DNA of 64,000 nucleotides. It comes from Glycomyces amatae. Its GTDB lineage: Bacteria; Actinomycetota; Actinomycetes; Mycobacteriales; Micromonosporaceae. Below, piece after piece: positions 46,545 to 53,091 of this stretch. Location: the NCBI RefSeq assembly GCF_020991375.1, contig NZ_JAJLQZ010000002.1, forward strand, positions 434,001 through 498,000, read 5' to 3'. The position numbers and the translations under genes were made by a program. The notes beneath the pieces were generated by a model. That model saw only the letters and a list, made by a program, of their open reading frames with translations. It did not search any database and had not been told where the DNA came from. The stretch's first letter is position 1; each line of letters begins with the position of its first letter.

Positions 46545-46563
46545 TCCTATTTAATCAATAGGA
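46545..46563. promoter_or_regulatory. Sulfur-regulon operator, site A
   Basis: TCCTAT-TTAATCA-ATAGGA, a perfect six-base inverted repeat with a 7-bp spacer, between the minus-strand egtA gene and the plus-strand leader peptide. AT-rich in an otherwise GC-rich setting. Confidence 0.7.
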
Positions 46564-46682
46564 TATGTAGAGCTTACGGCTCCCGCCCGCGGCGCGCAAG
46601 CGCATCGCGGCGCACCGGCGCGGCCTCCGCTGTCAATTCCCCGACAGCGACCGGGAAGTCCCGGTTCGGCGGGCGCGCGCAC

Positions 46683-46712
46683 TTGAATCATACTTAAAAG
46701 ATAGGATATAGT
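46683..46712 (+). promoter_or_regulatory. Leaderless promoter with sulfur-regulon operator, site B
   Basis: TTGAAT (46683-46688) and TATAGT (46707-46712) are 18 bp apart and the start would fall on the GTG at 46719. The spacer holds TCATAC-TTAAAAG-ATAGGA (46688-46706), the same repeat with a weak left arm. Confidence 0.65.
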
Positions 46713-46718
46713 TCGGGC

Positions 46719-46841
46719 GTGAACCGCATCGGCGAAGAGGCGGCGCCGCACTGGACGAAGCGGCGCCACATCGACTTCGCGCGCATCGACTCGGCCCTGT
46801 GTCGCCCGGGCGGCGCCGTCCGCGCCGACGCGATCCGCTGA
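46719..46841 (+). CDS. Cysteine-containing leader peptide upstream of the winged-helix regulator
   Basis: A 40-residue frame with the pattern KRRHIDFARIDSALCRPGG, matching the putative leader peptides seen in front of actinobacterial sulfur genes (basic residues, HID/HVD, then S-A-L/V-C-R). The single Cys codon TGT is at 46800-46802. Directly after it, GGCGGCGCC (46809-46817) is the exact complement of GGCGCCGCC (46924-46932), which covers the ribosome site just before the ATG of the next gene. A ribosome stalled at the Cys codon would mask the first copy and free the second. The transcript is probably leaderless. Confidence 0.75.
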   Translation: MNRIGEEAAPHWTKRRHIDFARIDSALCRPGGAVRADAIR

Positions 46842-46932
46842 GCCCCCGAGGCCGTCGATCGCGCCCGGCAGCGCATCCGACCGCGCCGCCCGCTCCGGAC
46901 TCCCACCCGACACCGAACGCGAAGGCGCCGCC

Positions 46933-47484
46933 ATGACCCACGTCCAGATCCGCACCCGTCCCCCCGCCCAACGCCGCTCCGGCACCGCCCACATCACGAT
47001 CACCGTCGAGATCCCGGCCGACGACCCGCGACTGGCGCGGCGCCTGACCGCCGCGCTCGGCCTCCTCGCCCAAGGCGGGGGCCGCGTCGCGGTCGCCGCC
47101 GACGACGTCCCGCCGGCCGTCGAGGCGCCCCGGCGGACGCCCGCCCTCGTCATCGACGTGCCCGCCCGCGAGGTCCTCATCCACGGCGAGGCGGTCGCCC
47201 TGACCCGCCTGGAGTTCGAGCTCCTGGCCTTCCTGGCGCGCTACCCGGGGATGGTCCACACCAGGACCGAGTTGCTCCAGTACGTCTGGGACACCCCGGA
47301 CACGGGACTGCCCGGCCGCACGGTCGACGTCCACGTGCGGCGTCTGCGCGCCAAGCTCGCCGAGTTCGACTCGCTGGTCGCGACCGTGCGCGGAGTCGGC
47401 TACCGGTTCACGCGCAGCCGGGACGTGGAGTACCGCGGCGCCGCCGGACTCCCCCGGGACGAGGACCGGGTTCTCAGCATCTAA
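46933..47484 (+). CDS. Orphan OmpR-type winged-helix regulator of the sulfur cluster
   Basis: A 183-residue protein with only the output domain of an OmpR-type regulator: LVIDVPAREVLIHGEAVALTRLEFELLAFLARYPGMVHTRTELLQYVW and TVDVHVRRLRAKL...ATVRGVGYRF (about 73-160). There is no receiver domain; residues 1-70 form an unrecognised part (AHITITVEIPADDPRLARRLTAALGLL). It is translated behind a cysteine leader peptide and sits between egtA and the organosulfur operon, so it is the best local candidate to bind the TCCTAT-N7-ATAGGA sites. That role is inference. Confidence 0.8.
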   Translation: MTHVQIRTRPPAQRRSGTAHITITVEIPADDPRLARRLTAALGLLAQGGGRVAVAADDVPPAVEAPRRTPALVIDVPAREVLIHGEAVALTRLEFELLAFLARYPGMVHTRTELLQYVWDTPDTGLPGRTVDVHVRRLRAKLAEFDSLVATVRGVGYRFTRSRDVEYRGAAGLPRDEDRVLSI

Positions 47485-50878: not shown

Positions 50879-51639
50879 CCGCCGCCGCGGCGGTCCGCAT
50901 CCGCGGCCTCCACCGCTCCTTCACCGACGACCGGCCGGTCCTCTCCGGCCTCGACCTCACCGTCGAGCCCGGCGAGTTCACCGCGCTCCTGGGCCGCTCC
51001 GGCTCGGGCAAGTCCACGCTCCTGCGGGCCCTGGCCGGGCTCGACGACGTCGCCAAGAACGGCGACGCCTCGGGCACCGGCGAGATCGCCGTGCCGCGGC
51101 AGGTCTCGGTGGTCTTCCAGGACTCGCGGCTGCTGCCGTGGCAGCGGGTCCTGGGCAACGTGGTCCTCGGCCTCGAAGGGGCCGGCGCCAAGGCGCGCGG
51201 CAGGGAGGCCCTGGCCGAGGTCGGCCTGGCCGGTCGCGAGCGGGCCTGGCCCCGGGAGCTGTCCGGCGGCGAGCAGCAGCGGGTGGCGCTGGCCCGCTCG
51301 CTGGTGCGCGAACCCGAGCTGCTGCTGGCCGACGAGCCCTTCGGCGCCCTGGACGCGCTGACCCGCATCAAGATGCACGGCCTCCTGCGCGCCCTGCACG
51401 AGCGGCACAGGCCCGCCGTGCTGCTCGTGACCCACGACGTCGACGAGGCGATCGTCCTCGCCGACCGGGTGCTCGTCCTGGACCAGGGGCGCCTCGGGAC
51501 CGAGCTGACCGTCGACCTCGACGGCCGGCGCGACCCCTCGGACCCGCACTTCGCGGCCATCCGCACCGAACTGCTCGCCGCCCTCGGCCTCGCCGGCGGG
51601 GCCGAGATTCCCACCGCAGACAAGGAGGACGACGCATGA
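50854..51639 (+). CDS. ABC transporter ATP-binding protein (SsuB-like)
   Basis: A 261-residue ATPase. Walker A is LLGRSGSGKSTLLRALAG, the Q loop VVFQDSRLLPWQRVLGNV, the signature ELSGGEQQRVALARSLV, Walker B ELLLADEPFGALDALT and the switch VLLVTHDVDEA. LPWQ in the Q loop is characteristic of the sulfonate/taurine/nitrate group. GGAGG precedes an ATG inside the permease gene. It powers the SsuA/SsuC-like importer. Confidence 0.93.
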   Translation: MATHTGGLTAAAAVRIRGLHRSFTDDRPVLSGLDLTVEPGEFTALLGRSGSGKSTLLRALAGLDDVAKNGDASGTGEIAVPRQVSVVFQDSRLLPWQRVLGNVVLGLEGAGAKARGREALAEVGLAGRERAWPRELSGGEQQRVALARSLVREPELLLADEPFGALDALTRIKMHGLLRALHERHRPAVLLVTHDVDEAIVLADRVLVLDQGRLGTELTVDLDGRRDPSDPHFAAIRTELLAALGLAGGAEIPTADKEDDA

Positions 51640-53003
51640 GCGCCAGACAGCTGCACCTCAACGCGTTCCTGATGAACACCGGCCACCACGAGGCGTCGTG
51701 GCGGCTGCCCGAGTCCGACCCGCACTCGTCCACGTCGATCGCGCACTACACGCGGCTGGCGCAGACCGCCGAGCGCGGGAAGCTCGACTCGATCTTCTTC
51801 GCGGACTCGCCGACCCTGTGGAGCACCATCGGCCGCAGGCCCTCGGGCTCGCTGGAGCCCACGGTGGCGCTGGCCGCGATCGCGGCCCTGACCGAGCGGA
51901 TCGGCCTCATCGCGACGGCCTCGACGACCTACAACGAGCCGTACAACCTGGCCCGGCGCTTCGCCTCGGTCGACCACCTCTCGGGCGGCCGGGCGGGGTG
52001 GAACATCGTCACCACCGCCACGCTGGACGCGGCCCGGAACTTCAACCTGGACGAGCTGCCGTCGCACGCCGCGCGCTACGCCCGGGCCGAGGAGTTCCTC
52101 CAGGTCGCCAAGAAGCTGTGGGACTCGTGGGACGACGCGGCCGTGCTGGGCGACAAGGAGGCCGGGCGGTGGGGCGACGAGCGGCTCGTCTACCCGGCCG
52201 ACCACGTCGGCGGGCACTTCCGGGTCGCCGGGGCCCTCAACGTGCCCCGGTCGCCGCAGGGGCACCCGCTGCTGGTGCAGGCCGGGTCCTCGGAGGACGG
52301 CAGGGCGTTCGCCGCGCTCCACGCCGAGGCGATCTTCACCGCGCAGCAGACCCTTGAGGAGGCCCAGGCGTTCTACGCCGACGTCAAGCGGCGCGCCGCG
52401 GCGGCGGGGAGGGATCCGGCGGGCGTGCTCGTGCTGCCGGGGATCGTCCCGGTGCTCGGCGACACCGAGGCCGAGGCCCGGGACCTCGAGGCGGAGCTCG
52501 ACCGCCTCATCGTGCCCGAGTACGCGCGGGACAACCTCGCGAAGCAGCTCAAGCTCGACCCGTCCGAACTGGACCTCGACAAGGAGCTGCCGGAGCACCT
52601 GCCGAGCGAGGACGAGATCGAGGGGGCCAAGAGCCGCTTCACGCTCATCGTGGACCTGGCCCGGCGCGAGCGGTTGACGGTGCGCCGGCTGATCGGCCGC
52701 CTCGGCGGCGGGCGCGGGCACCGCACGTTCACCGGCACCGCCGAGCAGGTCGCCGACGCGATCGTCGAGTGGTTCGACGACGGCGCGGCCGACGGGTTCA
52801 ACATCATGCCCGCCGTGCTGCCCTCGGGCCTGGAGGCGTTCGTGGACCGGGTGGTGCCGGTCCTCCAGGAGCGCGGGCGGTTCCGCACCGAGTACACCGG
52901 CACGACGCTGCGGGACCACTACGGCCTGGCGCGGCCGGAGAACCCGCGCCGCCGCGAGGCGCTCGAGTCCGCCGTCAAAGGCGTGCTCGCGCACTCCCGG
53001 TAG
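51636..53003 (+). CDS. FMN-dependent monooxygenase of the NtaA/SnaA/DszA type
   Basis: A 455-residue luciferase-fold enzyme: LHLNAFLMNTGHHEASWRLPESDP, AERGKLDSIFFADSPTLW, ERIGLIATASTTYNEPYNLARRFASVDHLSGGRAGWNIVTT and GHPLLVQAGSSEDGR are hallmarks of the two-component group that oxidises sulfones, sulfonates, chelators or dibenzothiophene. It needs FMNH2 from a reductase partner. With an Ssu-type importer and cysteine leader peptide it probably releases sulfite from an organosulfur compound. The ATG overlaps the ATPase stop (ATGA); last gene of the operon. Confidence 0.9.
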   Translation: MSARQLHLNAFLMNTGHHEASWRLPESDPHSSTSIAHYTRLAQTAERGKLDSIFFADSPTLWSTIGRRPSGSLEPTVALAAIAALTERIGLIATASTTYNEPYNLARRFASVDHLSGGRAGWNIVTTATLDAARNFNLDELPSHAARYARAEEFLQVAKKLWDSWDDAAVLGDKEAGRWGDERLVYPADHVGGHFRVAGALNVPRSPQGHPLLVQAGSSEDGRAFAALHAEAIFTAQQTLEEAQAFYADVKRRAAAAGRDPAGVLVLPGIVPVLGDTEAEARDLEAELDRLIVPEYARDNLAKQLKLDPSELDLDKELPEHLPSEDEIEGAKSRFTLIVDLARRERLTVRRLIGRLGGGRGHRTFTGTAEQVADAIVEWFDDGAADGFNIMPAVLPSGLEAFVDRVVPVLQERGRFRTEYTGTTLRDHYGLARPENPRRREALESAVKGVLAHSR

Positions 53004-53016
53004 GACGCCGGGTCGT

Positions 53017-53050
53017 CCCCGCCGGGCGTCCGCACCTTCGCCCGGCGGGG
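53017..53050 (+). terminator. Terminator hairpin after the organosulfur operon
   Basis: CCCCGCCGGGC (53017-53027) pairs with GCCCGGCGGGG (53040-53050), an 11-bp stem 13 bases after the stop. Confidence 0.7.
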
Positions 53051-53072
53051 ATCCGGGGCCCCGTCGCATAAA

Positions 53073-53091
53073 TACCATTATATCTATAGGA
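53073..53091. promoter_or_regulatory. Sulfur-regulon operator, site D
   Basis: TACCAT-TATATCT-ATAGGA, the 19-bp repeat with a degenerate left arm and perfect right arm and spacing. TAGGAT could serve as a -10. It lies in front of short frames only. Confidence 0.55.

Follow-up and report, generated by a model that had tools for sequence, protein, structure and literature searches.

An inverted repeat of 19 bp, TCCTAT-N7-ATAGGA, lies in promoter-like sequence at a sulfur locus of Glycomyces amatae, within the 64,000-bp stretch of DNA analyzed here (the window; contig NZ_JAJLQZ010000002.1, positions 434,001 to 498,000). The dyad is probably a sulfur-scavenging operator whose cognate protein is a clusterless, CymR-like repressor of the Rrf2 family, a proposal that we draw from sequence comparisons. 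The rrf2 gene found at the same locus in most relatives is absent from this particular genome, and the operators are nevertheless intact.

The dyad within and beyond Glycomyces

Four copies of the motif had been described in an initial annotation of the window, and all four are present at their coordinates. Sites 1 (46545–46563) and 3 (47489–47507) are perfect, and sites 2 (46688–46706) and 4 (53073–53091) each have two mismatches in the left arm. Site 1 precedes a gene for a GCS2-type glutamate-cysteine ligase (the egtA of the initial annotation), site 2 lies in the putative promoter of a cysteine leader peptide and a winged-helix protein, and site 3 precedes a second leader peptide and an organosulfur operon. 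A scan of the whole genome, all 6.17 Mb, found only three perfect copies, two of them at the locus, together with 14 two-mismatch copies (again two at the locus) and no one-mismatch copy, compared with 20 matches at up to two mismatches for the reversed pattern that served as control. Four copies within 6.5 kb amount to strong clustering, far above background. Within the 64-kb window alone, the number of copies at up to three mismatches is not significant, being reached by nine of 100 shuffles. Another control, CTTCAT-N7-ATGAAG, was dropped in favor of the reversed pattern because it was far commoner than the motif itself. The third perfect copy, TCCTATAGGATATATAGGA at C67:205797 (locus L003), is located between a DUF3046 gene and recA, and a one-mismatch version of it occurs in G001, G015, and G016, two of which are without the sulfur locus.

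Orthologues of the winged-helix gene, with 71–86% identity, were found in 12 of 21 congeners; the congeners include Glycomyces harbinensis (G011), Glycomyces paridis (G004), Glycomyces dulcitolivorans (G019), and Glycomyces sp. (G017), and the window’s own genome is referred to as G000. In all 13 loci, i.e., the window’s own and those of the 12 congeners, sites 1 to 3 are kept in the same order and places, and their arms are nearly fixed while the spacers drift. The core of the putative operator is TCCTA-N9-TAGGA, or ~23–25 bp with its A/T-rich flanks. The 13 Glycomyces genomes with the locus contain 60 sites at up to one mismatch versus 20 controls, and the nine without it contain 13 versus 29.

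Site 2 fills the 18-bp spacer between a putative −35 box (TTGAAT, 46683–46688, plus strand; TTGAA or TTGAT in 13/13 loci) and a putative −10 box (TATAGT, 46707–46712, plus strand; TATGCT in the other 12 loci), such that its first base is the last base of the −35 and the −10 follows it directly. The start codon of leader 1 comes 6 bp past this −10. The earlier claim that every site lies in a promoter thus applies to the promoter-like regions of sites 1 to 3 and is not supported for site 4, where the next predicted gene begins only at 53368. Moreover, none of the 12 relatives has a copy of site 4 behind the monooxygenase gene at up to two mismatches, in fetched loci that all reach that far. Because site 4 is not conserved, the locus consists of three transcription units rather than the four originally described. 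Site 4 was also considered as a relic of a deleted operon and rejected: the downstream sites of G. harbinensis, Glycomyces sp. G017, and G. dulcitolivorans sit inside the coding start of a permease and, therefore, provide no clear homologue.

Two further kinds of copies were encountered in Glycomyces. At L077:15730, L081:14633, and L085:4001, copies are conserved within the opening codons of another ABC permease gene (MTSIPI...), where coding constraint may account for them. In addition, six Glycomyces genomes (L076, L078, L079, L080, L082, and L083) have an unlinked locus with the conserved copy TCCTAGTAACTTGATAGGA or a close variant, which in L076, the sole annotated case, is found between DszC/SfnB-like and LysR-type genes. 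At one mismatch, no such unlinked copy occurs in the window’s genome.

The motif also occurs outside of the genus. At up to one mismatch, 39 further genomes from the family (f1 of the genome set, which we take to be Micromonosporaceae) yielded 68 sites and 25 reversed controls, and all of them were fetched and treated alike. Of the sites, 57 are intergenic and have a gene start no more than 450 bp away, compared with eight of the controls. For 44 sites, and for none of the controls, the adjoining gene has a homologue beside a site in another genome (Fisher p ~2e-9, a value that ignores shared ancestry; being fewer, the controls also had less opportunity for recurrence). Twenty-five of the 44 recurrent sites end 8–60 bp before the nearest predicted start, although starts in the fetched loci are approximate because genes were called with our own GC3-based script. 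The other 24 sites do not recur, some are inside genes, and some are probably due to chance. Since site 2 fills a −35/−10 spacer and the recurrent sites lie so close to gene starts, a repressor that blocks RNA polymerase is suggested.

The annotated neighbors of the sites, some of them scoring below equivalog cut-offs, include SsuA-type binding proteins, LLM and DszC/SfnB-like monooxygenases, and flavin and FMN reductases, as well as sulfatase-like, sulfotransferase, sulfite-dehydrogenase-like, YeiH-like, cysteine dioxygenase, and GCS2 ligase genes. A few neighbors, among them a pair of polysaccharide genes (L123), have no connection to sulfur. Most annotations were drawn from Glycomyces and from an initial 40 loci hand-picked among the matches listed, two of which belong to the order and the remaining 38 to the family; the family counts given above are based on every one of the 68 sites and 25 controls, a complete set assembled later from the 39 genomes. 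A sulfur-scavenging regulon is the best reading of these neighbors, and the sulfur regulon postulated for the window is well supported by the recurrence of the motif across genera. Other genes were also observed behind the motif: a NAD_binding_9 FAD protein, a candidate sulfur-linked enzyme, directly follows it in six genomes (L096, L104, L110, L111, L115, and L134, the last with a weak match), and DUF4395 proteins (L088, L097) and carbonic anhydrase-like proteins (L120, L132) were found as well. Among 40 genomes of the order outside of the family, there were 26 sites versus 13 controls, a single genome accounting for nine of the sites, and only the family f13 (G072, G085, and G094) stands out, with eight versus one.

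Conceivably, the dyad might have arisen by chance or be a mere promoter or terminator element, with the right arm serving as a −10 box or the palindrome forming an RNA hairpin. ATAGGAT does resemble a −10 hexamer, and the dyad could pair in RNA. However, the −10-like box of site 2 comes after the dyad, both arms are kept in the face of spacer drift, and recurrence beside homologous genes is confined to the sites, all of which makes this explanation highly improbable.

A CymR-like Rrf2 protein as the candidate regulator

Eight of the 13 Glycomyces loci contain an rrf2 gene between sites 1 and 2, the latter site lying ~50 bp upstream of it. This gene encodes a protein of 151 aa, or a few residues longer in some gene calls. 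The protein of G. harbinensis is a member of the Rrf2 superfamily (TIGR00738, 96.3 bits; cut-off 73.3) and falls below the cut-off of the NCBIfam CymR equivalog (81.3 bits versus 195), and the Rrf2 matches in the PDB include the CymR structures 3t8r and 2y75. The one protein inspected for cysteines (L195_4 of G. harbinensis) contains none, and hence no Fe-S ligand cysteine.

Related Rrf2 proteins were assigned to three groups based on similarity matches and on trees with open inner forks. Group 1 comprises the rrf2 gene of the Glycomyces locus and its relatives in the family, as placed by trees. Group 2 is a housekeeping rrf2 gene that, in Glycomyces, adjoins a gene for a GntR/FadR-like regulator and has a YihY-like gene nearby (both named by eye), and group 3 is mostly encoded in or beside ssu-type ABC operons. 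The distribution of the motif follows that of group 1: the 25 family genomes with a group-1 protein contain 55 sites versus 12 controls, and the 14 without contain 13 versus 13 (Fisher p 0.0035, with G051, a partial 53% match, counted as without; such tests overstate independence because the genomes share ancestry, which tempers the case). Group-3 operons often begin with the motif. In five other genomes, an rrf2 gene lies in an ssu-type ABC operon with a site in front; four of these (L108, L121, L124, and L127) were found through the site, and the fifth (L234), whose site has two mismatches, was found through rrf2. When 12 loci were chosen by Rrf2 similarity alone, including two (L214, L219) whose gene belongs to group 2, seven (L210, L211, L213, L217, L218, L220, and L221; the last three with an Rrf2 match without a called gene) had a site, with no more than two mismatches, immediately in front of rrf2 or of the ABC operon to which it belongs. 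In L218 and L220, the site is ~29 bp before the Rrf2 match.

Another candidate, and the one implied by the initial annotation, is the winged-helix protein encoded at 46933–47484 (plus strand), which would bind the dyad as a dimer and regulate the ligase gene and the organosulfur operon along with its own promoter. Its gene occurs together with the three sites in 13/13 Glycomyces loci, including the five that lack rrf2, and each of its orthologues in G028, G036, G046, and G049 has a site 38–277 bp before the start. This support is partly circular, however, in that the Glycomyces sites were sought around the winged-helix gene, and the four outside orthologues came to light because of their sites before they entered the search profile. 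Even so, orthologues were recovered from only four of the 39 other family genomes (E 1e-61 or better, next match 1.5e-49, the four being rows of the profile itself), a narrow distribution that weakens the case for the protein as sole regulator. Furthermore, sites are enriched in the 21 genomes with a group-1 Rrf2 and without a winged-helix orthologue (37 versus 11 controls, 25 of the sites recurrent); since the enrichment remains after removal of the four orthologue-bearing genomes, the motif does not require the winged-helix protein. The protein itself has a PF00486 (Trans_reg_C) domain (78 bits; cut-off 26.2) and no receiver domain (Pfam, E 0.01). Its domain is OmpR/PhoB-like, and domains of this type usually bind direct repeats. 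We, therefore, regard this orphan protein as a regulon member and a doubtful choice for cognate regulator; the sites track the CymR-like Rrf2 instead.

Several observations weigh against a CymR-like Rrf2 as the cognate repressor. Five Glycomyces genomes (G000, G002, G006, G007, and G008) keep sites without a group-1 protein, and seven recurrent sites are found in other genomes counted as lacking group 1 (one each in G022, G025, and G047, and two each in G051 and G056), so that the motif does not depend on group 1 alone. Of these genomes, G051 carries a group-3 protein, and a group-2 protein is present in G047 and G056, as judged by the trees. Conversely, four genomes (G023, G029, G040, and G054) have group 1 and no site at one mismatch. 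In fetched loci of 10–12 kb, a site at up to two mismatches is present in only four of 20 group-1 loci outside of Glycomyces and in none of eight group-2 loci, with a ninth group-2 locus (L307) having a weak site >3 kb away. The other five of the 12 loci chosen by similarity have no site directly before rrf2 or its operon, and the recognition helix of group 3 (PLSFLQ) differs.

Putative operators without their rrf2 gene

In the window’s genome, there is no rrf2 between sites 1 and 2, which are separated by only 124 bp. A local alignment with the rrf2 coding DNA of G. harbinensis identified a probable 70-bp remnant of the gene’s 3′ end in this interval (46606–46675, minus strand). Its score of 33, compared with a mean of 16 and a maximum of 30 for 300 mononucleotide shuffles, is modest on its own. 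The remnant of G008 is clearer (59 versus a shuffle maximum of 29), and local alignment revealed none in G002, G006, or G007. In a tree of the group-2 protein, G000 pairs with the rrf2-bearing G. harbinensis (support 99/81); although this is a one-protein tree and not a species tree, the pairing makes at least two losses of rrf2 likely. Tentatively, then, at least two Glycomyces lineages may have deleted rrf2 independently with their operators intact, and control may have passed to the winged-helix protein, which has a different fold, or to the housekeeping Rrf2.

Alternatively, the sites of the window’s genome could be relics to which nothing has bound since rrf2 was lost, leaving the operons constitutive or controlled by their leaders only. 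The absence of rrf2 beside a probable remnant is consistent with this, as are the state of site 2, which has one arm mismatch more than in G. harbinensis, and the lack of conservation of site 4. In contrast, sites 1 and 3 are perfect, with site 3 closer to perfect than in any of the other 12 loci, and the rrf2-less G002 and G007 keep all three sites. Relic status is, thus, unlikely.

If the operators are still in use, they would most plausibly be served by either the group-2 Rrf2 paralogue or the winged-helix protein. Two rrf2 genes were detected in the window’s genome at E 1e-8, namely the group-2 gene (C34:304838) and another that is only distantly related. In Glycomyces, the recognition helices of groups 1 and 2 (PRKFAE and PRKFLE) are nearly identical, so the group-2 paralogue could bind the sites. 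All 22 Glycomyces genomes have a match that is 44–48% identical to the group-1 protein, and 12 of these matches were placed in group 2 by the tree. In G047 (L125), an ABC operon with a site lies one gene away from the group-2 gene, and in G042 (L223) the group-2 gene is followed by an ABC operon of similar type, with only a four-mismatch site. As a general binder, the group-2 protein was rejected, since its own loci lack the site, as noted above, and it is present also where the sulfur locus is absent.

Leader peptides, locus genes, and known systems

Both of the cysteine leader peptides first noticed in the window exist. Leader 1 (46719–46841, plus strand; 40 aa, ...RRHIDFARIDSALCRPG..., possibly with a leaderless GTG start) is conserved in 11/13 loci, and leader 2 (47528–47704, plus strand; MTSAAFLTRRREIDQMRAASALCQ...) in 13/13. 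Leader 1 scores below the cut-offs of NCBIfam families NF042933, NF042934, and NF042936 (22.3, 17.3, and 17.3 bits versus 45, 27, and 45, respectively), and leader 2 has no match to any of the three. A site-linked leader in L117, however, reaches 28.5 bits against a leader-family cut-off of 27. In L089 and L117, the motif is followed by a cysteine leader (...RREVDQMRVASALCR and ...RRAIDLMRVASGLCR) and then by genes of 428 and 356 aa without a Pfam match. Because leaders follow sites 2 and 3 and the sites of L089 and L117, operator and cysteine-codon control probably act in series.

The ligase gene before which site 1 lies (45265–46515, minus strand) encodes a locus-specific paralogue of the GCS2 family. 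It is a second GCS2 copy, as the window’s genome also has a 48% paralogue at C30:7488. Of the nine Glycomyces that lack the locus, six have such a paralogue (48–51%) as their only copy, with no site within the fetched 4 kb. Behind site 3 and leader 2, the organosulfur operon, all on the plus strand, encodes an NADPH-dependent FMN reductase (47870–48415), a flavin reductase (48412–48921), an NMT1-like ABC substrate-binding protein (48957–50015), an ABC permease (50012–50878), an ABC ATPase (50854–51639), and an FMN-dependent monooxygenase of the NtaA/DmoA family (51636–53003; TIGR03860, 553 bits; cut-off 280).

From these arrangements, we infer a mechanism in which an Rrf2 repressor would occupy the dyad and block RNA polymerase under an ample supply of cysteine or sulfur, and would release the operator upon sulfur shortage, while the cysteine leaders would provide a second layer that tunes expression in some units. 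In the window’s genome, where rrf2 was presumably deleted, the surviving operators would be served by another protein. Loss of a repressor gene beside intact operators would represent a natural experiment on how a regulon survives the loss of its regulator. Moreover, the motif supplies a testable operator for a global actinobacterial sulfur repressor, none having been found in our search of open-access full texts, and points to a candidate regulator family. It also yields a list of regulon members that includes sulfonate-type uptake systems, monooxygenases, cysteine dioxygenase, sulfite-export-like genes, and the FAD and DUF4395 proteins. The initial annotation did not recognize the motif as that of a described actinobacterial sulfur regulator, and no paper describing it was found in a search of open-access full texts, a body of literature that leaves out most subscription journals; the type of regulator, on the other hand, is already described in Firmicutes in the form of CymR. 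CymR acts in a complex with CysK, reading O-acetylserine.

Among known systems, the cysteine leaders of actinobacterial cys operons, which are short upstream peptides with cysteine codons near the stop (PMC1262725), are of the same type as those of the window; the latter differ in falling below the NCBIfam leader cut-offs and in being sited behind a putative protein operator. The closest report is that of Rhodococcus qingshengii IGTS8, another actinobacterium, in which a candidate CymR/Rrf2 protein (peg394) was proposed as a global sulfur regulator from proteomics; the portion of that paper available contains no motif or regulon (PMC8557817). Rrf2 proteins as a class bind long inverted repeats or 23-bp sites, as described for RsrR (PMC5015018) and NsrR (PMC9338935). 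RsrR of Streptomyces venezuelae is also an actinobacterial Rrf2 with inverted-repeat sites (11-3-11), but is a [2Fe-2S] protein, and its targets relate to NAD(P)H and glutamine rather than to sulfur scavenging (PMC5015018). Finally, CymR of Bacillus subtilis and Staphylococcus aureus is likewise an Rrf2 protein with sulfonate-use and cysteine-supply targets, which it represses together with CysK when cysteine is present (PMC3828012). The candidate proposed here resembles CymR as a protein and, should it bind the sites, would have targets of a similar type, but it is actinobacterial, scores below the CymR cut-off, and has putative sites before LLM and DszC-like genes and cysteine leaders.

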